From contig NZ_SLWK01000004.1 in NCBI RefSeq assembly GCF_004345615.1, positions 186,001 to 250,000 of the forward strand: DNA of 64,000 nt, read 5' to 3'. This stretch comes from Natronoflexus pectinivorans. GTDB lineage: Bacteria > Bacteroidota > Bacteroidia > Bacteroidales > Marinilabiliaceae. The translations under genes were made by a program, and so were the position numbers. Numbering within the stretch: the stretch's first letter is position 1; every line of letters starts with the position of its first letter. Of the stretch, positions 45,820 through 59,462 are shown in pieces. The notes beneath the pieces were generated by a model that did not search any database, had not been told where the DNA came from, and saw only the letters and a list, made by a program, of their open reading frames with translations.

Positions 45820-47541
45820 TCATTTTTGTGTTAACAATGCGTCAATGGCACCTGAAAGATAAACAAGGGGGGCATTCCAATTTATCGCTACTTCATTGGT
45901 AGAATAGCTACATTCCAAATCCACATATGATTTTGCGGGATAAGGACTACGTTCCACTTCCGGGCCACAATCGGTAAGAACAGAAACATTCGGACCACCG
46001 GCCAAGAAACCAGGAACAGGTGCTTCATTATCATCGGCCTCAGAGGGTCGGTGATGAATGTTCATGACTTTCTTATAACCAAATCCAGTAACAAAGCAAT
46101 ATCCGGTAGCGTTGCGTCCAAGAATATAGTCAAGATCAGACAAAGCTGAATACAGATAATCCCTGTTACCGGTTAATTGATATCCTTTGATCTTTAACAT
46201 CCCTTCATTGGCAACCTGGGAATTGCTACCCCATACAAAATTCTGAATACTTACGCCATAAGGAGCCGTTTTTGATGCTTCAACAAGTTCATCAATTAGA
46301 GCGATAAAATCATTCCTTAATCCAAGGTTCCTGACAATCTCAGGCAATTCATCGTAGTTGTTTAATAAAGAAATAAAACCTAAAGCATAAACCTGGCTCC
46401 ATGATGGCACGACGGGCTTGCTGTATTTTTCTATAATCACATCAAGATACTCATCCTTTCCTGTTGATAAGAACAGTTCTGATGCTGTCCAGAAAAACTC
46501 ATCACTAAAATTACGGTCGCCATACCCACCAGTGAAGATATCTTCTGGCTGTACATAAGGCAAATTGGGATTACTCATGGCCCACCCCCATGCTTTTTCA
46601 GCCTTTTGCAAACATTTCTCGGCCAAACCGGGAAAATGTGACTCATAATCCTTCAAGACCCTATAAGCTTTTGCAGCAACAGCTGCATAGTTTAATGTCG
46701 CTGCCGTACCTTTTGATACAACAAACCGATCGTTTGTGGCTTCATGCGGCATCACCATCCCTTCGAAATTTTTAGTCGTTAACTTATGGTAAACGCCACC
46801 ATCATGGGGATCCTGCATGGTTAACATCCATTTGAGATTATAAAGAGTTTCCGACAATAAGTCAGGAACACCACTACCACTTTCAGGAATATTTACATCT
46901 AGTTTTTTATAGTAATCCGTGAAGTGAGTCAGTGCTGAAAGCAAAGTGTATGTTGTGATTCCGCTATTAACAATGTATTTGTTATAATCTCCGGCATCAT
47001 ACCACCCAAGTGGTGAGGATATTATTGTTCCTTCCGGCCTGTTTTCATCAGCTGCCGAAGAATGAACATAAATAACGGTATCGGGATGACCGGCAGGACG
47101 AGCCCATCTACCACCATATTGAGCTTCAATTGCCATACCTGAGCGATTATAGTAGAAAGCCTCTAAAGCCGCTTTGGTGATTTCTCTGAATGGCTGATCT
47201 TTCACCTGTATTTCAAAGTTCTCATCGGTCTCAGGCAATACCACTAAATAGGTACCGGGAACATTTAATTGAGAAAAGTCAACTTTACGCACCGCGTCAC
47301 CAGATTGCTCCCAGAACAATGGTTCTTCCGGAATTGCAGAAAAAACCTCATTTCCCTGAGCATCAATTATTATAACATTGTTCACATCCTCTGCTACCAA
47401 CAATAACTTTGGAGCATTGGTAATATACCCAACCTGATTGTATAGAACAGGCATCTCCTTTTCATTATTTTCCTGTTGTGAACAGGAAAGTATTTTTAAT
47501 GCGGCAATAAAAAGGATTAAGAGTTTGGATAAATCTTTCAT
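45820..47541 (-). CDS. GH9 endoglucanase-like lipoprotein
   Basis: A 573-residue lipoprotein; the ATG at 47541 (MKDLSKLLILF) gives a clean signal with lipobox KILSC (Cys20), whereas the ATG at 47586 adds 15 polar residues. An N-terminal Ig-like CelD_N domain (about 30-115, VLYNQVGYITNAPKLLLVA) precedes the (alpha/alpha)6 catalytic barrel (about 125-570). Catalytic features: DAGDYNKYIV (base Asp pair), the HHRPSEAD segment, and acid Glu in CSYSTNEVAINWNAPLVY. This is the usual build of bacterial GH9 endo-beta-1,4-glucanases. Downstream of GH94 with a 97-bp gap, it probably shares a transcript with it and the GPH symporter. It would cut beta-glucan chains outside the inner membrane, supplying cello-oligosaccharides to the cytoplasmic phosphorylase. 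Confidence 0.93.
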   Translation of the reverse strand: MKDLSKLLILFIAALKILSCSQQENNEKEMPVLYNQVGYITNAPKLLLVAEDVNNVIIIDAQGNEVFSAIPEEPLFWEQSGDAVRKVDFSQLNVPGTYLVVLPETDENFEIQVKDQPFREITKAALEAFYYNRSGMAIEAQYGGRWARPAGHPDTVIYVHSSAADENRPEGTIISSPLGWYDAGDYNKYIVNSGITTYTLLSALTHFTDYYKKLDVNIPESGSGVPDLLSETLYNLKWMLTMQDPHDGGVYHKLTTKNFEGMVMPHEATNDRFVVSKGTAATLNYAAVAAKAYRVLKDYESHFPGLAEKCLQKAEKAWGWAMSNPNLPYVQPEDIFTGGYGDRNFSDEFFWTASELFLSTGKDEYLDVIIEKYSKPVVPSWSQVYALGFISLLNNYDELPEIVRNLGLRNDFIALIDELVEASKTAPYGVSIQNFVWGSNSQVANEGMLKIKGYQLTGNRDYLYSALSDLDYILGRNATGYCFVTGFGYKKVMNIHHRPSEADDNEAPVPGFLAGGPNVSVLTDCGPEVERSPYPAKSYVDLECSYSTNEVAINWNAPLVYLSGAIDALLTQK

Positions 47542-47638
47542 AAGATTGCTATTTAAGGGTTTAGTTTTCTCAAAGAATCGCAACACCTCTTGTGATTTCT
47601 TCCATGTTACACGAGGTTCTAACAGACATCCATATCAA

Positions 47639-50071
47639 TTACCCCATTATTACTTCCACATCTAAAACCTCACCAGGAGAATACGGAACAATTGCATCAT
47701 TGCAATTTTTCCCATTAACCCTGATCTCCTTTACTCCTTTACATACGCCATCGGGGTTTTCAACTTTTATATTATAAATTGTGCCACGCAATTTTCGACT
47801 AACTTCATATCCCTTCCAGCTTGCAGGTATGCAGGGATCAATAATAATTCCGTCGTAATCGGGTCGAACACCTAAAATATAACGGGTTATGGCATAATAG
47901 TTCCAGGCTGCGGTACCGGTAAGCCATGAGTTTTTTGCCTCTCCCGGCTTGTGTGCATCTTTACCCGCAATCATTTGTGAGTAAACGTAAGGCTCGGTTT
48001 TGTGCAAATCACTGATGTCCTCAAGGTATGCCGGACAAATCTTCCTGTAATAATCCCAGGCCTGATCGCCACGTCCAATTACTGTTTCGCCTATCATGAT
48101 CCAGGGATTGTTATGACAAAAAATGCCTGCATTTTCCTTATAACCTGCAGGATAAGTAGAAATTTCTCCATATTCGAGCACATAACTGGTAAAGGCCGGA
48201 TTGTTTAAGACAATACCATATTCGCAATCCAGGCGTTCTTTTACAGCATCTAGCGCTTTATGAACCATCCCTTCCTCTTTACCAATTTCAGCCATTGAAC
48301 ACCATCCCTGGGATTCAATAAAAATTTGTCCCTCCTGATTTTCTTTGCTCCCTACCTTTTTGCCATAAAAATCGTATGCTCTTAAATACCAATCACCATC
48401 CCATCCATGTTGTTTAATGGTTTCCACCATTCTATGCACATGAGGCTCGGCTGCATCAGCCTCGTCATTTTTACCAATTTGACGACATAGTTTTACAAAC
48501 TCACGACCATAAACCACAAAAAGTCCGGCTATCATAATCGATTCGGCAGTTCCACCGCTTTTATTCTCTGTGGTTTGAAAAGATTCATTCGGATTGGTTG
48601 AAAAACAATTGAGGTTAAGACAATCGTTCCAATCAGCCCGACCGATTAACGGCAAACCATGTGGCCCTAAATTATTCACTACATGATAAAATGATACCTT
48701 AAGATGATCAAAATGCGGTTTAGCTCTTGATTCATCATTGTCAAATGGCACCATCTCATCCAGGATTCCATAATCACCGGTTTCTTTAATATATTCTGTG
48801 GTTGATAAAATCAACCACAACGGGTCATCATTAAAATTCCCACCAATAGCGTCATTCCCTCTTTTGGTAAGAGGTTGATATTGGTGATATGCGCCACCAT
48901 CTTCAAATTGGGTAGAGGCTATATCTATGATTCGCTCCTTTGCTCGTTCCGGAATCTGATGAACAAATCCGATTAGATCCTGGTTTGAATCACGAAACCC
49001 CATTCCTCTTCCAATTCCAACTTCAAAAAACGAAGCTGAACGGGACATGTTAAAAGTCACCATACATTGATACTGGTTCCAGATATTCACCATTCTGTCC
49101 AGTTTTTCATCACCACTGTTAAGTACATAAACACTTAGTAAATCGTCCCAGTATTTTTGCAAATCATTCCAGGCGGCATCTACTTTTTCCGGAGTATTGA
49201 ACCGTTTAATTGCATCATTTGCTTTGGCTTTATTGATTACATTTTTAGATTCCCACTTTTCATCATCGGAATTCTCAACATAGCCAAGAATAAACACCAA
49301 CTCTTTTGATTCTCCCGGTTTCAGATCAATTTCAAGATAATGAGAAGCCACGGGTGACCACCCGTGTGCATGGGAATTTCGTGGTTTTCCTTCAAGCACC
49401 GCCAGAGGACCACTGTACTCATTATACAGCCCCACAAAACTCTCCCTGTCGGTATCAAACCCCTGAATTTCTGAATTAACATGATAGAAAGCATAGTGAT
49501 TTCGTCTCTCTTTGTATTCTGTTTTATGGTAAATTGTTGATCCAACAATTTCAACTTCACCGGTACTTAAATTCCTCTGAAGGTTATTCTGATCATCTTC
49601 CGCATTCCACAAGCACCATTCCATAAATGAGAAAAGCTTAAAGCTCTTAACATCTGGACTATTATTAGTGAGCTTTACTTTTTGAACTTCGCACCATGAT
49701 TTTAATGGAACAAAAAACAGAACTTCAGCTTCCAGACCATTCTTCTCTCCTTTTATCCTTGTATAACTCAATCCATGCCGGCATTCGTATTTATCCAATG
49801 GCGTTTTCACAGGCTTCCATCCGGGAGACCAAACTGTGTCATTATCCTTAATATAGAAATATCTGCCACCGTTATCCATCGGTACATTATTGTACCTATA
49901 TCTGGTTAATCTCCTAAATTTTGCATCTTTATAAAAAGCATACCCCCCTGCACTGTTGGAAATTAAAGAAAAGAAATCCTCATTGCCAAGATAGTTTATC
50001 CATGGCCATGGAGTTACCGGGTCTGTAATTACATACTCCCTGTTTTCGTCATCAAAATATCCGTACTTCAT
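47639..50071 (-). CDS. GH94 cellobiose phosphorylase
   Basis: An 810-residue cytoplasmic enzyme (no signal peptide) that splits cellobiose with phosphate into glucose 1-phosphate and glucose. It starts [16 protein letters not shown], typical of cellobiose phosphorylases, and has the full domain set: N-terminal beta-sandwich (about 1-275), helical linker, (alpha/alpha)6 barrel (about 320-730) and C-terminal jelly roll. Motifs: [25 protein letters not shown], catalytic Asp in [11 protein letters not shown], and [10 protein letters not shown]. The length equals known cellobiose phosphorylases. It lies 42 bp after the GPH symporter gene and before GH9, a transport-phosphorolysis unit. Specificity for cellobiose over laminaribiose or N,N'-diacetylchitobiose is favoured by the N-terminus and by the GH9/GH5 context. 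Confidence 0.92.
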
Positions 50072-50113
50072 CTTTATTATTAACTTTCTAATTATCTTTA
50101 AATATCCTCAATC

Positions 50114-51730
50114 TCATTGCTCTTTAGTCTCCAGAACTCTTCTTTGTGCCAACTCAAGAGTAATTTCATTCATCTTAGCTTGATTTAATGGATATAAATA
50201 CATTAAAACAGCTCCTATTAGTGCGATCAATGAAGGAATCCAGCTCATCAACATAATAATTCCGGGTACTGCACCTTGTATGGCTGCAGTACTTTGCCCA
50301 TCATAATTAAAGGCTGCAAGTACAAATCCAATGATGGCTCCGGCTACACCACCCCCAAATTTCGTTGAAAATGACCCGGCAGAATAAATCAATCCTGTTG
50401 CCCTCCGGCGATTAATATACTCTGAATAGTCAGCAGCATCTCCCAACATAGCAAAAAAGAGGGTTGGGAAAATGGCCGCAGCAAATTCTGATATTACTCC
50501 TATTGTAAATATTGCCATCATATCACCAGGTCCGCAAAAAACAAACAATGCATTTACAGCGCCTGAAAATATCAAGGCAACAATAAACAAGTTTCGTTTC
50601 CCCCATTTCCTGGCCAAAGCAGCGGTAGCCATGGCACCTCCTATGGACGCAATCATGAGAGCCACCATGTATGTTCCAGCCATTAACTGATTGTGCAGAT
50701 AATGGGTAAAATATATAACAATGATGCCCTGCTTTATAGAATTATATATTTGAAACAATAAACCAATCAGTAGCAAAATAATCCAGGGCCTGTTTCTGAA
50801 CAGATCTTTTAAATCTCTCTTTAAGTCAGTTTTTTGTGCTTTAGGAGGGGAAACCCGCTCCCTTGTAGTATAAAATGTAATTAAAAGCGACAACGAAAGA
50901 AAAACGGACATCAAATATATGGCCTTACTGTACCCACTGCTTTGATCAATGATTACAAATTCTCCTTCATCCAGATTTTCCTCGCCGGTTACAATAAAAC
51001 GGTAAGTCTCATGAGCTTTCATTGAGAAACTTTTGCCTTGCGTTGGAACATCAATGGAATCATGAATGAAAGGTTCAGCCCAGACAAACAGGCCAAAACC
51101 ATTTCTTGTTTTAATGTTTACATTTTCCACGTCCATGTTCGTGGATACAGCGACCTCGTATTTGTCAGAGTTTATTTGCGTTACTTGTACTTCCGGATTT
51201 ATATTTCCAAAATGAGCTACCAAAAACAATAAAGCTCCCTGTACCAGCATCCCACCGGTAAAAGCTCCAACCATTCGATAAGAACCTAAACTGGTACGCT
51301 CTTTATCGTCGCCTGACATAACAGCCATCAGCGCACCGTATGGTATATTGTTGGCTGTATAAACCAGGGTGAATATGATATAAGTGGTGTAGGCGTAAAT
51401 TAATTTCCCGACAGGACTCAAATTGGGTGCTGTAAATAACATAGAAAGTATGACACCAAGTGGAATTGCAGTCCAGAGTATCCATGGCCGGAATTTGCCG
51501 TACTTTGATTTGGTTCGATCACCTACAACGCCCATCATAATATCACTGATGCCATCACTTGAGCGGGCTATCAGTAACAATAATCCAACAGCGGCGGGAT
51601 TGAGGCCAAACACGTCGGTATAAAATATAAATAGAAATGTGGAAACTCCCCTCCAGGCAATATTTGCCGCTCCATCTCCAAATGCGTATCCGATTTTTTC
51701 CCTTATTGAAATCTTTTCGAAACTACTCAT
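50114..51730 (-). CDS. GPH-family sugar:cation symporter with periplasmic insert
   Basis: A 538-residue inner-membrane transporter of the glycoside-pentoside-hexuronide family (MelB-like), predicted with 12 helices. It begins IREKIGYAFGDGAANIAWR and has the family loop VGDRTKSKYGKFRPWILWTA (about 69-88). Members are usually about 450-480 residues. Here residues 176-268, between helices 5 and 6 and so on the periplasmic side, form an extra hydrophilic, beta-rich stretch (VTQINSDKYEVAVSTNMD..., KAHETYRFIVTGE). The gene is first in a minus-strand set with GH94 and GH9, which suggests cellobiose or cello-oligosaccharide uptake. Palindromes at 51801-51956 lie just upstream and may bind the neighbouring Nudix-type regulator. 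Confidence 0.92.
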   Translation of the reverse strand: MSSFEKISIREKIGYAFGDGAANIAWRGVSTFLFIFYTDVFGLNPAAVGLLLLIARSSDGISDIMMGVVGDRTKSKYGKFRPWILWTAIPLGVILSMLFTAPNLSPVGKLIYAYTTYIIFTLVYTANNIPYGALMAVMSGDDKERTSLGSYRMVGAFTGGMLVQGALLFLVAHFGNINPEVQVTQINSDKYEVAVSTNMDVENVNIKTRNGFGLFVWAEPFIHDSIDVPTQGKSFSMKAHETYRFIVTGEENLDEGEFVIIDQSSGYSKAIYLMSVFLSLSLLITFYTTRERVSPPKAQKTDLKRDLKDLFRNRPWIILLLIGLLFQIYNSIKQGIIVIYFTHYLHNQLMAGTYMVALMIASIGGAMATAALARKWGKRNLFIVALIFSGAVNALFVFCGPGDMMAIFTIGVISEFAAAIFPTLFFAMLGDAADYSEYINRRRATGLIYSAGSFSTKFGGGVAGAIIGFVLAAFNYDGQSTAAIQGAVPGIIMLMSWIPSLIALIGAVLMYLYPLNQAKMNEITLELAQRRVLETKEQ

Positions 51731-51957: not shown

Positions 51958-52722
51958 CTAAATTGCAAAATCAAAAAGCTCTTTACGAGTATTTTCGTAT
52001 ATCTCCCGATCGAAAACATACAAACGAGCAGGCTTATGTGCTACACCTTTTTGTTTTTCGTCAAGTGCCACAAGGTACTTCATTCTGGAGACCTTCTTTC
52101 TGAAATTTCTTTTATCCAGAGATACTCCGAGAACAACTTCGTACAATCGCTGTAGTTGAGAAAGCGTGAATTTAGGAGGAAGCAATTCAAATCCGATGGG
52201 TTCCTGAAGCAGTTTCTTTCTTAGTGCTGTTAAAGCTTCATTCAGAATTTCCATATGGTCAAACGCAAGTTCTTTGACCTCCGATACCGGGAACCAACTT
52301 ACATTCCTACCCTTCCATTCGAGTGTTACTTTATCGGTGGCCAATAATGAATAATATCCTACAGTGATAATTCGCTGATCTGGATCACGTCCATTGGCGG
52401 CAAGCCAGGCTTTATCATTCTCTCGAGTGATCCTTTGGGGAGAACCAAAAGTTTGAAACTGTTCAAGGTAGATATCCTTTAATCCGGTAAGATCAAATAA
52501 AATACGGGCAGCTGCAGCCTCAAGATCTTCATCTTCATAAATGTGGTTTCCTGTTAATGTCAAATCATTAAACTTCTCCTTGTCCGTTATTTCATCCTTT
52601 AGAACCCTATCTACCAATAAAACGTTCAGTTGTGTGAAATCAAATCCGAATATTACACAGTCTACTGATACATAATCATTAATTCGGGCTTTTGGTTTTG
52701 TAGTAATTACCTGATTACTCAT
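51958..52722 (-). CDS. Nudix-fold transcriptional regulator (NrtR/AraR type)
   Basis: A 254-residue protein from the ATG at 52722 (MSNQVITT); the ATG at 52743 would add 7 residues. The N-terminal Nudix fold (about 15-150) has VDCVIFGFDFTQLNVLLVDR and a degenerate Nudix box (DLEAAAARILFDLTGL) that has lost the REx2EE catalytic acids, so it should bind rather than hydrolyse a ligand. The C-terminal winged helix (about 170-250) has LPPKFTLSQLQRLYEVVLG and RNFRKKVSRM, typical of NrtR-like repressors and Bacteroides AraR. It sits immediately upstream of the GPH-GH94-GH9 genes, which it probably controls in response to a sugar or sugar phosphate. The ligand is unknown. Confidence 0.88.
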   Translation of the reverse strand: MSNQVITTKPKARINDYVSVDCVIFGFDFTQLNVLLVDRVLKDEITDKEKFNDLTLTGNHIYEDEDLEAAAARILFDLTGLKDIYLEQFQTFGSPQRITRENDKAWLAANGRDPDQRIITVGYYSLLATDKVTLEWKGRNVSWFPVSEVKELAFDHMEILNEALTALRKKLLQEPIGFELLPPKFTLSQLQRLYEVVLGVSLDKRNFRKKVSRMKYLVALDEKQKGVAHKPARLYVFDREIYENTRKELFDFAI

Positions 52723-52893
52723 TTCTAGTGTTTTTTGGCGCAATTCTAAGTGTTTCGATTACACTTTCGAAAATTTTTTGCTAATTTATGACTATATTTT
52801 AAAAAAACAAATTGCAAATTGAAATATTTTTCCAACAAGAGTTTATCATAACATTTGATTCCTTTTATTTGTAATTTAGAATAAAAAACAAAA

Positions 52894-53771: not shown

Positions 53772-54464
53772 CTAGTGAATTTTAAATATTCTATCACCAA
53801 TGGTAATCTCTTCATTCTTCTTAAACTGATAGTAAAAAGCTCCTTTCTTTGAGCTTTGTCGATCTTTTTCATTTAACCTCTCAAGGAGATTCAATGACAA
53901 TATTTTTTTTCTAAAATTACCAGGATCAAAAGGACGCTGAAAAATCGCTTCATAAAGAAGTCTTAATTCAGTCAATGTAAACTTATCCGGCAATAACTCC
54001 TTACCTGTAAGATCATATGAAGACTTTTTCTGAAGAAACTCCAGTGCGTTATCAACCATTTGGTTATGATCAAAAATTAATTGAGGAACCTCTTTTACAG
54101 GAACCCAATATGCTCCCATTTTCTTTACCAGTTCATGATTGTATTCATCTACTCTGATGAGCGCCGCAAAAGCGATGCTTATTACTCTTTCGGCCAGATC
54201 TCTGGACACCTCTGAAAAAGCTGAAACCTGCTCAAGAAATATGTTTTCTAAACCTGTTATCTCCAACAAGACCCTTCTTGCGGCATCTTCTATCGATTCA
54301 TCTTCCTGAACAAAACCTCCCACAAGTGATGTACTGCCTTTGGCAGGCTCGAGATCTCTGTTATATAGTAATAGTTTTAACTCATCGTCTTCGTAACCAA
54401 ATACTACACAATCTACAGCTACAAGATGTTTGGGCTGCGAATAAAAACCGGTGCTTTTTGACAT
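53772..54464 (-). CDS. Nudix-fold transcriptional regulator (NrtR/AraR type), second copy
   Basis: A 230-residue paralogue of the regulator at 51958. The Nudix part (about 12-135) has VDCVVFGYEDDELKLLLYNR and a box (SIEDAARRVLLEITGL) again lacking the REx2EE acids, so it is not expected to be an active hydrolase. The winged-helix part (about 150-225) has LLPDKFTLTELRLLYEAIFQ and PGNFRKKILSLNLLERL. Bacteroides AraR, an arabinose-responsive repressor, has this build. With arabinose-type GH43 genes in the window and a XylF-like binding protein next door, a pentose ligand is plausible (inference). Confidence 0.88.
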   Translation of the reverse strand: MSKSTGFYSQPKHLVAVDCVVFGYEDDELKLLLYNRDLEPAKGSTSLVGGFVQEDESIEDAARRVLLEITGLENIFLEQVSAFSEVSRDLAERVISIAFAALIRVDEYNHELVKKMGAYWVPVKEVPQLIFDHNQMVDNALEFLQKKSSYDLTGKELLPDKFTLTELRLLYEAIFQRPFDPGNFRKKILSLNLLERLNEKDRQSSKKGAFYYQFKKNEEITIGDRIFKIH

Positions 54465-54814: not shown

Positions 54815-55816
54815 CTAATTTCGTATTTGATTCCAGGTGTATTGCCCAACGTTTATCAATTCCTCTTCAATACTCTGCCTTGTAATGGCAACAGAATTCA
54901 TCCTGTAGGTTGGGATTTCAACAAAGCCATTAAATGTTTCCCAATTAGCCAACCTTGATGATCTTTCTCCATTGAGCATTTCAAAAGCCAAATCTGCAAC
55001 ACGATATCCCAAAGCCCTATGTGGATGATAAACAGTAACAGTCATATTGCCATTATACACCTGACGCACAGCCTCAAGTATAGCATCCTGACCAGTCACA
55101 ACAACATCACCTTCAAGACCATATTCTGACAAAAGCTCGATAGCGCCCACACCCATCGGATCACTACAAGCAATGACTGCATCTATATCCGTTCCATGTG
55201 ACTCCAGTATTTGTTGTAACTCAAATTTGGCTCGTGTTCCACTCCAATTCTCCACAAAGGTACTATATATTAAATTAATTCTACCAGATTCGATATGAGG
55301 AGCCAAAATTGAATCGATGTGCTGCTTCAGTTCAAGTCCATTTCTATCAAACCGATCGCCTCCAAGCACAATATAATTACCAGTAGGTTTTAACCTTAAT
55401 GCTTCATCACAAAAGATTTGCGCTATTTGCTGATTATTTCCAGTTATGAATAAATCATAATCTGAATTATTAATAAGTCTGTTATAGGCAATTACTCGCA
55501 CACCTCTGCGCTGAGCGTCTCTTACCAAAGGTGCAATTGTATTACCGTTTACACATGCAATAATTAACATATCCACACCTTCATCAAGCAATTCATAACC
55601 CTGTCTTAATTGCAATGCATCATTGTCTTCAGCAGAACGAACGATAAAATTAACGCCTAATTCAGCAAAACGCTCTCCCATAAACCGTCCTTCATTAACA
55701 AATCGGACCCTGTCCTCAGACGGATTAAGATATGCTACGGTAAAATCGCTTCTCTTACTGCATGAAGACAGCAATATTAAAGAAATTAAAACCAAAATAC
55801 TTAGAAAATGTCGCAT
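54815..55816 (-). CDS. XylF/RbsB-like periplasmic sugar-binding lipoprotein
   Basis: A 333-residue lipoprotein (lipobox LLSSC, Cys19) with a type I periplasmic-binding fold (Peripla_BP_4, about 25-310). Typical phrases are FTVAYLNPSEDRVRFVNEG, LLDEGVDMLIIACVNGNTIAPLV, GVRVIAYNRLI, VIACSDPMGVGAIELL, VVTGQDAILEAV and MTVTVYHPHRALG; they fit the xylose-binding XylF group. No ABC permease or ATPase is near, so it is unlikely to feed an ABC importer encoded here. It is divergent from a chemoreceptor gene with 227 bp between the starts. It could present a pentose to a membrane sensor (inference). Confidence 0.88.
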   Translation of the reverse strand: MRHFLSILVLISLILLSSCSKRSDFTVAYLNPSEDRVRFVNEGRFMGERFAELGVNFIVRSAEDNDALQLRQGYELLDEGVDMLIIACVNGNTIAPLVRDAQRRGVRVIAYNRLINNSDYDLFITGNNQQIAQIFCDEALRLKPTGNYIVLGGDRFDRNGLELKQHIDSILAPHIESGRINLIYSTFVENWSGTRAKFELQQILESHGTDIDAVIACSDPMGVGAIELLSEYGLEGDVVVTGQDAILEAVRQVYNGNMTVTVYHPHRALGYRVADLAFEMLNGERSSRLANWETFNGFVEIPTYRMNSVAITRQSIEEELINVGQYTWNQIRN

Positions 55817-56043
55817 AATTAGTAATTAGAAAATTGGTAATTTTAAAACCTTATCACGAAATCACACGTAAAGATTGTTAAATTTTTACAATATTTGCAA
55901 CAATGGCTTTCAACAAAAAAATTGCACATGTGAAGATAGCAAATATAAAAGAAAACTTTAATTTTACCTGAATCAAAGGATTAGTTTATTAATCAATTTT
56001 AAGAAACCAAATCATAGCATCCTTATACAAAAAAGTAAACATC

Positions 56044-57840
56044 ATGTCAATTGCAAAACTTTGGAACGACCTCAGCATCAGAAAAAAAATAGGAACCGGA
56101 TTTTCGTTAATCATAGGAATTACATTATTAACCGGCTTATTTTTAATCATTAACCTCTACTCCATTTCAAGGCAAACCAACGAAATGGCAGAGGTACATA
56201 TACCTACGGTCAATGCATCAACCCAATTGATGCGCTTTTGGCATGAAGCAAGTGAGAGTGCCAGGTCATATGATTTTACTGCAAACAAGCATTTTTTGTT
56301 TGAGAACCAGATCGCTATGACAAGAATGTTGAACGCTCTTAATGATTTAACCATTCTTGTTGAAGACCGAAAGGCAGAACTAGAACAACAGGGAGTCTTT
56401 ATTGATTTATTAAATCAATTTGCCAGAGAATACAGTCAAACGCGAAATGATTATGAAAATGCAGCGAATGATTATGAAACCATCGCTTTACAATTCAGGG
56501 AAAGATTGATGGCAATAAACAACAATTCGCTATCTCTAAGGAGTTTTAATCAGGCACAAATACTTGCCCGTTTAAATCATTTAGTCAGCCAAATGCAACT
56601 AAACATCATTGACCGAGATGGTCTAAACTTGAGAGATCTGAGAGATTCGTTTGTTGAGCAGCGTGAAACTATAAATCAAAACCAGGTTTCAGGGGAGTTC
56701 AGAAATGACATAATTGAAATATGCAATCTGGCTATCAGAACCATAGATGGTTATTCTACGCTCAGACTGGCAGAATTGAAAGCCTTTGAAGCTGCTAAAA
56801 ATGTACTATGGGAAGTGCGTGCAACCACTGATATCGGAGTAGATCAAATTATGGTTGTTAGTGATATAAGTAACCAAATCACCAGTAGACAAACAACCAT
56901 CCAGTTAACAACCATAATTCTTTCTTTATTATTAGGATTGATTCTTATAATTCTGCTATCCAATTCAATAAGCAAGCCAATTACGGAAGGCATAGAGATG
57001 GCAGAAAAAGTGGCAGATGGTGACTTAACTGTGAAGCTTGAACAGAACCGAAACGATGAAGTAGGAAGATTGGCTAAGGCCTTAAACCATATGACATCTA
57101 ACTTAAACAATCTGGTTTCGGATATCATTGAAACTTCTGAATTCATTGTAAGTTCTAGCGAATCGTTACAACAAAAAGCACTTGATTTGGCCGAGGGAGC
57201 TAACGAGCAGGCTTCTTCCACAGAAGAAGTATCTTCTGCTATGCAGGAAATGCATGCCAATATAGAACAAAACACAGAAAATGCCAGAGAAACTGAAGGG
57301 TTATCATCAAAGGCAGCATCGGAAATGAGTGAAAGCAATAAGAAATCCAAAGAATCTGCCGCAAATCTTGAAGATATTACAACCAAAATAGCAGTCATAA
57401 AGGACATCGCTTTCCAAACCAATATTCTGGCCTTAAATGCGGCAGTAGAAGCGGCACGTGCAGGCCAGGAAGGTCGCGGATTCGCAGTTGTGGCAGCTGA
57501 AGTAAGAAAACTGGCAGAAAGAAGTCAGGCTGCAGCACAGGAAATTACTAAGGCATCAACCACCACAATAGAATCTTCAAACATTTCTACGGCATTACTC
57601 GATTCCATTACCCCTCAAATTGAAAAAACAGCCGAATTGATTCGAGAAATATCCGCTGCATCATCGGAGCAGGTGAGTGGAGTTCAGCAAATAAATCTGG
57701 CGATACAGGAACTGAATCAGGTTACGCAAAGAAATGCGGCCAATGCAGATGATATCAACAATGCTTCCACAATGCTTCAAAGCTATTCACAAAGACTGCA
57801 CAAAGCAGCCAGTGCCTTTAAAGCAACCAAAACGGAATAA
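56044..57840 (+). CDS. Methyl-accepting chemotaxis protein
   Basis: A 598-residue chemoreceptor-type protein. TM1 at about 17-38 and TM2 at about 288-308 enclose a periplasmic all-helical region of about 245 residues, long enough for a helical-bimodular (HBM) rather than a single four-helix sensor. A HAMP domain follows (about 308-362, [23 protein letters not shown]), then the signalling coiled coil with the hairpin tip [20 protein letters not shown]...[18 protein letters not shown] (about 454-500). There is no C-terminal NWETF-like pentapeptide. No che genes are in the window. Receptors like this report to CheA/CheW to bias motility; its divergent neighbour is a sugar-binding protein, a possible ligand carrier. 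Confidence 0.93.
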
Positions 57841-58007: not shown

Positions 58008-59462
58008 ATGATTGAAATAACTTCTATCTTAAAAAAAAATATAGTTCAAAAAAGCATACCTTTAATAATTGGAATGCTAATATTCATAATTAGTAGAAAC
58101 TATTTTTTCTTTTGGGATACCATTTCTCAAATATCCATACCGGCTAATTGGTATTTTGATAATAACTTCAAAAGTTTTTGGGTACCTGATGAAAGTACAA
58201 CTGGCCACCTTCCAGTATTACCTCTTTATGTGGCTTTTGGATGGAGTTTACTCGGGAAATCCATCGTAATAACAAATCTACTTTTTGTACCATTTGTTAT
58301 TGGAATAATCTATCAGCTAAAAAGTCTTTCCGAAAAGGTTTTTCATGACAATATTGTTCTTCAGAATCTATTAATGCTACTTGTATTGCTTGATGCAACT
58401 TTGCTGTCGCAATTGAGCATGATAACCCCCGATACCCCACATATTTTTTTTTACTTACTTTCAATTAATGCGATATTGTCAAACAAAAGAGCATTATTAG
58501 TTTTTGCAGTAACTCTTATGGGACTAGTCAGCATGCGTGGAACGATGACCATTGGAGGCATAACTATATTTTATCTATTGTATCAATACTCCTTTAAAAA
58601 ATTATCAATACGTGAAATATCTACAATTATTTTTCCAGTTTTTATAGTGGGAATTGCATATGGACTTCATTACTTCACTAAAGGCTGGGTTGTTCATAAT
58701 ATAAACTCAAGCAATTGGAGTTCATCATCTGAATTGGTAGATTTTTCACATCTGATAAAAAACATCATTGTATTTAATTGGCAATTAGCTGACTATGGAA
58801 GAATAGTTCTTTGGTTCATTAGCTTCTATGGATTGTATAAAATAATAAGAAACAAGCAAGCATTTGACAATACGACCTTAATATTGCTTGTCCTTATTGC
58901 GACTCAAATCATTATTTGGTTTCCAATTACTATAGCACATAAAAACCCTTTTGGGCACAGGTATTTTTTGCCAATAATAGTATTACTCCCCTTTTTAACA
59001 TTACATCTTATCCATAAATATTTTAATAAAACACACTTATTAACAGCAATTTCTTTTATTGCTCTCACAGGTGGCTATTTCGTTGTTTACCCCAAGAAAA
59101 TAGCTCAAGGATGGGATGCTACCCCTGCACATTGGTCTTATTACTCTTTAAGAAAAGAAATGATTAGTTATTTAGATAATCAGTCCATTGACAAAAACAA
59201 CGTCAGTAGTTTTTTTCCAAATCTTGCATCAAGTTATCATATCGACCTGGACACCATTAACACATTTAATTTCAACAGGTTCAACAACTTAAAAAGCCAA
59301 TATGTTTTTTACTCAAACGTATATAATATGTCTGATGAAGCAATAGATTTACTTTTTCACTCTGACTCATTTAAGAAGAAACATATCCTAAAAAAAGGTC
59401 AGGTTTATATAATTCTCTTTGAGAGAAAACAAGACGATCCTCCTACTCCACCTGTGCCGTAA
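58008..59462 (+). CDS. GT-C membrane glycosyltransferase (GT39/ArnT-like)
   Basis: A 484-residue polytopic protein with about 10-12 hydrophobic helices and a soluble C-terminal tail of about 110 residues. After the first helix it has the acidic loop FFWDTISQIS, and later TTGHLPVLPLYVAFGWSLLG, matching the D-x-n-GHPP arrangement of polyprenyl-phosphate-sugar transferases (PMT/ArnT, GT39/GT83 clan), although Leu replaces the first Pro of the loop. It would move a sugar from a polyprenyl carrier to a protein, lipid or glycan on the periplasmic side. The gene is more AT-rich than its neighbours. Its 3' end overlaps the convergent yraN gene by 20 bp. Confidence 0.75.
   Translation: MIEITSILKKNIVQKSIPLIIGMLIFIISRNYFFFWDTISQISIPANWYFDNNFKSFWVPDESTTGHLPVLPLYVAFGWSLLGKSIVITNLLFVPFVIGIIYQLKSLSEKVFHDNIVLQNLLMLLVLLDATLLSQLSMITPDTPHIFFYLLSINAILSNKRALLVFAVTLMGLVSMRGTMTIGGITIFYLLYQYSFKKLSIREISTIIFPVFIVGIAYGLHYFTKGWVVHNINSSNWSSSSELVDFSHLIKNIIVFNWQLADYGRIVLWFISFYGLYKIIRNKQAFDNTTLILLVLIATQIIIWFPITIAHKNPFGHRYFLPIIVLLPFLTLHLIHKYFNKTHLLTAISFIALTGGYFVVYPKKIAQGWDATPAHWSYYSLRKEMISYLDNQSIDKNNVSSFFPNLASSYHIDLDTINTFNFNRFNNLKSQYVFYSNVYNMSDEAIDLLFHSDSFKKKHILKKGQVYIILFERKQDDPPTPPVP

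Follow-up and report, generated by a model that had tools for sequence, protein, structure and literature searches.

In the Marinilabiliaceae, a family of marine and soda-lake bacteria, the gene for a solute-binding protein (SBP) that lacks a transporter nearly always stands back-to-back with that for one type of chemotaxis receptor, and the two products probably form a two-piece sensor, which could direct cell movement to sugars. The pair was analysed in a 64,000-nucleotide stretch of contig 4 (the window) of the Natronoflexus pectinivorans genome, which is 4.47 Mb in 46 contigs and 99.98% complete. The original prediction, made from the letters of this DNA, described an XylF-like SBP gene divergent from a chemoreceptor gene. 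This arrangement was confirmed, the two genes lying on opposite strands 227 bp apart. The features of the locus, in window coordinates, are as follows.

53772–54464, minus strand: Nudix/NrtR-AraR-like regulator adjoining the SBP gene (Pfam, neighbour comparison)
54815–55816, minus strand: XylF-like (CUT2/Peripla_BP_4) SBP, putative lipoprotein, 333 aa (ORF list, Pfam, NCBIfam)
55817–56043, no strand: divergent intergenic region, 227 bp, between the SBP and receptor ORFs
56044–57840, plus strand: methyl-accepting chemotaxis receptor, 598 aa (ORF list, Pfam HAMP and MCPsignal)
56158–56895, plus strand: periplasmic sensor, residues 39–284, predicted helical two-module HBM/TorS-like fold (structure model, structure alignment)
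56953–57108, plus strand: HAMP domain, residues 304–355 (Pfam)
57277–57780, plus strand: MCP signalling domain, residues 412–579 (Pfam)

The solute-binding protein

The SBP has a signal peptide with the lipobox LSSC and Cys19, as judged by reading the sequence. It matched Pfam Peripla_BP_4 with 139.1 bits (E 2.6e-40; gathering cut-off 35.1). With the NCBIfam model xylF (TIGR02634, D-xylose ABC transporter SBP) it scored 195.9 bits, which is under the equivalog cut-off of 389.55. Its nearest solved relatives by sequence were an Actinobacillus SBP, E. coli XylF and ChvE, and the nearest named organism by SBP identity was Alkalitalea saponilacus, also of the Marinilabiliaceae (95%). The predicted structure (model m097bb375dc7e, pLDDT 95.3) gave its best TM-score among solved structures with open E. 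coli XylF (3m9w; TM 0.93/0.96, rmsd 1.4).

Across the family, the strict lipobox pattern was present in 45 of 56 receptor-linked SBPs, one of these 45 being a likely false match within the hydrophobic core. In the remaining 11, a Cys stands behind a hydrophobic stretch in 10, and one has an over-long start. Promoter-like matches in the 3.7 kb around the intergenic region were at chance level (13 observed, 13.7 expected). Homologues of the Nudix/NrtR-AraR-like regulator were found on the SBP side in 5 of 52 compared loci; the product of 53772–54464 is possibly a local regulator of the pair.

The receptor and the che genes

HAMP (48.6 bits, E 1e-12; cut-off 25) and MCPsignal (119.4 bits, E 2e-34; cut-off 34.6) were both identified in the receptor. 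No kinase domain was matched in Pfam, and the output is the MCPsignal domain. The gene downstream (58008–59462) encodes a 484-aa protein with no Pfam or NCBIfam match, which among the compared loci was seen elsewhere only in a locus of the same genus.

The original prediction had proposed a look for che genes and for motility genes, either flagellar or gliding. The genome was found to carry two che clusters: CheA, CheR and CheB occur in both, CheD in one, and five CheW matches fall in the two clusters. There are 10 MCPsignal matches in all. As for motility, SprA (type IX secretion and gliding) is present, and a search for flagellin, the sole flagellar family searched, gave 0 matches in this genome. 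A genome paper on A. saponilacus does not mention motility (PMC6357142).

The two che clusters and the lack of a flagellin match would also fit a receptor that acts in a chemosensory pathway not steering movement, for instance one for gene regulation. Such a role is compatible with a docking step between SBP and receptor. We regard it as somewhat unlikely, given the presence of the adaptation genes CheR, CheB and CheD and of SprA, which suggests gliding or type IX secretion.

The sensor domain

The sensor is flanked by two transmembrane stretches, from reading of the sequence, and this N-terminal region had no Pfam match. Residues 39–284 were modelled with AlphaFold2 from 15 sequences. The predicted structure (pLDDT 91.6) consists of six long helices and a short one, in keeping with the earlier claim of an all-helical sensor. 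In VIA-align 2, McpS was at the top of the list (Z 16.3, rmsd 3.1, 214 aligned residues, 6% sequence identity across the alignment). It was followed by McpZ (Z 13.2), Vc1313 (13.0), TorS (13.0), TorT-complexed TorS (12.5–12.7), PilJ (12.2) and then a designed bundle (11.8), values to be read with the caution that helical bundles commonly score Z under about 13. McpS is thus a safe match and TorS is near the border; McpS and TorS have one and the same architecture. Foldseek also placed McpS first (E 0.0027, probability 1.00), with nothing at E below 0.001. These models predict an McpS-like fold, with the helices in two stacked bundles (HBM-type). Pfam HBM (PF16591) matched 3 of 16 aligned sensors weakly (best E 0.00071), the sensor of the window not being among the matches listed, and a PDB sequence search with the sensor profile gave weak matches alone (best E 0.032).

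The best conserved residues of the sensor, W28, E206, E211, W218 and D225, lie roughly halfway along the long helices by estimated position, and the malate site of McpS presumably falls near the polar ones. As McpS-type domains may bind acids at this level, a direct ligand is possible. Like McpS, the receptor might then bind a small ligand of its own, such as an organic acid, in its membrane-proximal module, leaving the SBP with a separate job or a modulating role. The closest predicted fold, McpS, and the conserved polar residues midway on the first and last helices are consistent with this. So is the account of HBM receptors in PMC5126104, where those described mostly bind organic acids and not sugars. 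On the other side, the SBP neighbour is kept by all 53 strong sensors of the family, and the SBP has no CUT2 permease to serve (both below). We therefore consider direct binding as the whole explanation improbable; direct and indirect sensing may co-exist.

Pairing of the two genes across the family

Profiles of the SBP and of the sensor were searched in 71 Marinilabiliaceae genomes. The SBP was present in 53 of them at E 1e-20 and the sensor in 45 at E 1e-5, with 60 matches. The sensor profile was built from 16 paired sensors and is hence biased to them, unpaired close relatives being still detectable. The 120 SBP rows were compared with the 60 sensor rows, and genes within 3 kb of each other were counted as paired.

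Conservation of the neighbourhood in relatives had been set beforehand as a test of the prediction. All 53 sensor matches above 80 bits, in 45 of the 71 genomes, have an SBP within 3 kb, which is divergent in 52 cases and on the same strand in one. The seven matches below 40 bits have no SBP within this distance. From the side of the SBP, 56 of 63 proteins scoring above 250 bits are paired with such a receptor. Two of the seven unpaired ones are at contig ends (G397, G401) and five have other neighbours (G398, G434, G440, G441, G443), which include MgtE, a sulfatase, and GH32 together with a sugar MFS transporter. At 250 bits or less, 4 of 57 rows are paired with a sensor, all of them fragments of broken genes.

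In the 52 fully read loci (the broken G421 locus was excluded), 51 of them divergent, the gap between SBP and receptor ranges from -2 to 672 bp. Two tandem SBPs stand opposite a single receptor at four loci (L093, L094, L105 and L116, in G395, G446, G424 and G445), where one receptor could read two ligands. At another, in G444, the receptor is flanked by one intact and one broken SBP.

N. pectinivorans itself has a second divergent pair at 132.7–135.8 kb of contig 4, about 105 kb from the first, with the SBP at 134.8–135.8 kb and the receptor facing it on the other strand. The two SBPs are 43% identical. The receptors are 39% identical overall, and their sensors 26% over 277 columns (E 7e-26). 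Among seven Peripla_BP_4 matches in this genome, only the two paired SBPs are without a LacI-like N-terminus (judged by eye in the first 75 residues).

N. pectinivorans aside, the sensor was absent at E 1e-6 from a phylum sample of 395 genomes. In a class sample the SBP was detected at E 1e-30 in 4 of 395 genomes: N. pectinivorans, one further genome of the Marinilabiliaceae and two genomes outside it, from other families. Within that sampling, the pair thus looks confined to the Marinilabiliaceae.

When the 52 loci were grouped by common neighbours, 12 groups were obtained, with sizes of 31, 5, 4 and 4 and eight singles; the largest group is loose because single linkage was used, and short contigs account for some of the singles. 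As 31 loci fall in one linked flank set, the conservation is partly shared descent, and the two genes might be mere linked neighbours in one inherited locus, with no joint function. This is very unlikely: the pair persists in other settings too, with 12 flank groups of which four hold several genomes, and genomes with two pairs keep both as pairs.

Trees of the SBP and of the sensor from 50 full pairs have 31 of 47 splits in common, against at most 2 in 300 label shuffles. The SBP and signalling-domain trees likewise share 31 of 47. The Spearman rank correlation was 0.55 for SBP and sensor and 0.60 for SBP and signalling domain; the partial correlation of SBP and sensor given the signalling domain was 0.30, reached by 0 of 500 permutations. 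We do not conclude from these values that a cognate interface co-evolved, since the SBP tracks the signalling domain as well as it does the sensor. Equal agreement with both trees indicates joint inheritance and duplication of the genes and not a co-evolving interface, and about 50 pairs are too small a set for inferring contacts.

Absence of a CUT2 permease

The earlier observation that no ABC permease lies near the SBP gene extends to the entire genome for the CUT2 family: a BPD_transp_2 search gave 0 matches, the same search being positive in 12 of 14 control genomes. In the family, BPD_transp_2 was matched in 3 of 71 genomes at E 0.001 and in 2 of 71 above the cut-off. The three (G432, G433, G437) all have the sensor, so 42 of 45 sensor genomes are without a match. 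An ABC transporter elsewhere in the genome, co-occurring with the SBP, had been set as the other test of the prediction; no CUT2-type permease was found in N. pectinivorans or in 68 of the 71 family genomes, and an ordinary transport SBP was rejected on this ground. Absence of this permease family suggests that the SBP works as a component of sensing alone, with no role in transport. Neither loss of the neighbourhood nor a CUT2-type permease for the SBP was thus encountered, and the idea of a sensing pair withstood both tests.

Sensing is not the only role in the SBP superfamily. In G166, a genome of another family, a distant SBP relative is encoded with an ABC ATPase and a BPD_transp_2 permease by an alpha-amylase gene (L195:1854–5493), a transport-type locus.

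Distant SBPs of the family

Many family genomes (loci L145–L193) encode an extra, distant XylF-like SBP in which the XylF pocket residues are kept. No receptor of the paired kind occurs at these loci, and the CUT2 permease is absent from nearly all the genomes. The extra gene is often an orphan by a UvrD-type helicase, homoserine dehydrogenase or similar housekeeping genes. A histidine kinase was considered as its partner and rejected, the large conserved neighbour being the UvrD-type helicase; the other flank holds homoserine dehydrogenase and phosphoglycerate mutase genes. With such flanks, many distant SBPs look like orphans. At two loci (L151:4468–7660 and L156:2231–5514) a distant-class SBP adjoins a different MCP on the same strand, with a sensor unmatched by the profile. 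These are possibly separate SBP–receptor pairings.

Ligand pocket and neighbouring genes

Pocket positions were counted in XylF numbering on an alignment with XylF. We take R16, D90, R91, N137, W169, N196, D222 and K242 to be the xylose-contact residues of XylF. Among the 56 receptor-linked SBPs, R91, N137 and W169 are present in all and D222 in 54. D90 is changed to N in 54 of 56 and K242 to H in 55, and position 196 (N in XylF) holds F, Y, S, N or C. The full set of contacts was thus not found in this group. In 48 distant SBPs passing a length filter of more than 280 aa, D is at position 90 in 44, K242 is present in 45 and N196 in 42, and a Trp follows the first Arg in 44. With N90 and H242, the receptor-linked group probably reads a related but different ligand. 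E42, T93, D154, Y184, E199 and Y326 are further positions that mark the group. In the SBP tree, a split with support 0.75 separates all 63 receptor-linked and orphan close SBPs, together with 4 of the 48 distant SBPs, from the rest.

In the window, a GH9 cellulase-like enzyme, a GH94 phosphorylase and a GPH symporter are encoded in a row at 45820–51730 on the minus strand, probably a cluster for cellodextrin use, and Nudix/NrtR-AraR-like regulators lie beside them at 51958–52743 and 53772–54464. At other pairs the neighbours are PfkB kinase and phosphoglucomutase genes, efflux genes or a DeoR regulator, and no GPH symporter homologue was found within four genes (about 4.5 kb). Reading the ligand from neighbouring genes was accordingly rejected, as the flanks differ and the symporter homologue is missing from them.

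It is also very unlikely that the SBP feeds a permease of another, unrecognised family and is paired with the receptor for shared control of taxis and uptake of one nutrient. Ordinary XylF-type SBPs do feed ABC permeases, and the GPH symporter and glycoside enzymes are nearby. But the sole permease family searched, BPD_transp_2, is the one that goes with SBPs of this type, and 68 of 71 genomes gave no match to it; the fetched flanks of other pairs hold no GPH symporter homologue, and GPH-type symporters are not known to work with SBPs.

Discussion

It is likely that the SBP and the receptor make up one split chemoreceptor of two parts, without a role in transport: a sugar-like ligand would be bound by the SBP, which would dock on its receptor. 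We infer lipid anchoring, SBP–receptor docking, a sugar as ligand and gliding as output in the following way. The SBP would be periplasmic, tethered by lipid at the lipobox Cys, and would take a small ligand, most likely a sugar, into its XylF-type cleft. It would then dock on the helical two-module sensor of the neighbouring receptor, by analogy with TorT–TorS and PstS–CtpL. Docking may change the receptor and, by way of HAMP and MCPsignal, the CheA/CheW pathway, the output of which, with no flagellin, could be gliding.

A fuller history is put forward tentatively and with some doubt. An SBP of sugar uptake may have lost its ABC permease and been recruited by an HBM chemoreceptor as the half that reads the ligand. 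The pair would have been duplicated as a unit, with the pocket changed (Asp to Asn, Lys to His) and the SBP sometimes doubled, and would guide gliding to sugars released from plant or algal polysaccharides.

Most known SBP-driven chemoreceptors borrow the SBP of a transporter, and the majority belong to bacteria with flagella. Dedicated SBP–receptor pairs are typically linked, and linkage is not defining for all known cases; here, SBP and receptor co-occur and are linked for 53 of 53 strong sensors. Trg with RbsB/MglB and ChvE–VirA are cases in which a membrane receptor takes its input from sugar SBPs of this superfamily. RbsB/MglB and ChvE, the latter among the nearest solved relatives of the SBP studied here, double as transport parts, unlike the window SBP. 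Trg has a simple four-helix sensor, whereas a two-module sensor is predicted here. LytS, a sensor kinase, has a sensor domain of another kind.

In PMC6321045, cases of chemoreceptors that borrow transport SBPs are listed, E. coli sugar SBPs are described as informing chemoreceptors, with a 4HB sensor in Trg, and TorT is stated to bind TorS. The present pair resembles TorT–TorS (3o1h, 3o1i, 3o1j) in combining a binding protein with a two-module helical sensor, the model matching complexed TorS at Z 12.5–12.7, a range in which helical bundles commonly score. The differences are that TorT–TorS responds to TMAO through a histidine kinase, TorS, and that here the partners are an MCP and an XylF-like SBP with a lipobox. 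In P. aeruginosa phosphate taxis, ligand-loaded PstS stimulates CtpL, an HBM chemoreceptor, as described in PMC5126104 and PMC6321045. The pair shares with CtpL–PstS an HBM-type chemoreceptor with an SBP, here known from genes and a predicted fold. PstS, however, binds phosphate and serves PstABC too, whereas the SBP studied here comes from a sugar-binding family, lacks a CUT2 permease and has its gene beside that of the receptor. XylFII–LytS, in which an XylF-like SBP works with a membrane sensor kinase in xylose sensing (PMC6321045), is similar in having an XylF-like SBP with a membrane sensor and different in its partner, which here is an MCP with an HBM-like sensor. McpS of P. putida has the closest fold to the modelled sensor, yet it binds Krebs-cycle acids directly (PMC5126104).

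Sensing driven by SBPs through helical two-module sensors is thus known. What is described here is a probable, well-conserved variant of it in Bacteroidota, with a dedicated lipobox SBP, no CUT2 permease and an HBM-like receptor. No paper describing an SBP–receptor pair of the Marinilabiliaceae was found in searches of open-licence PMC papers.

To our knowledge, how Che proteins steer movement in flagella-less Bacteroidota is little understood. Since the gene of this SBP is found across the family beside that of its receptor, with no CUT2 permease, the likely partner of the receptor is named and ligand screening becomes simple, by purification of the SBP. If the proposal is true, the pair would be a transport-free, modular sugar-taxis receptor of non-flagellated Bacteroidota and would give these flagella-less bacteria a defined chemotaxis input.
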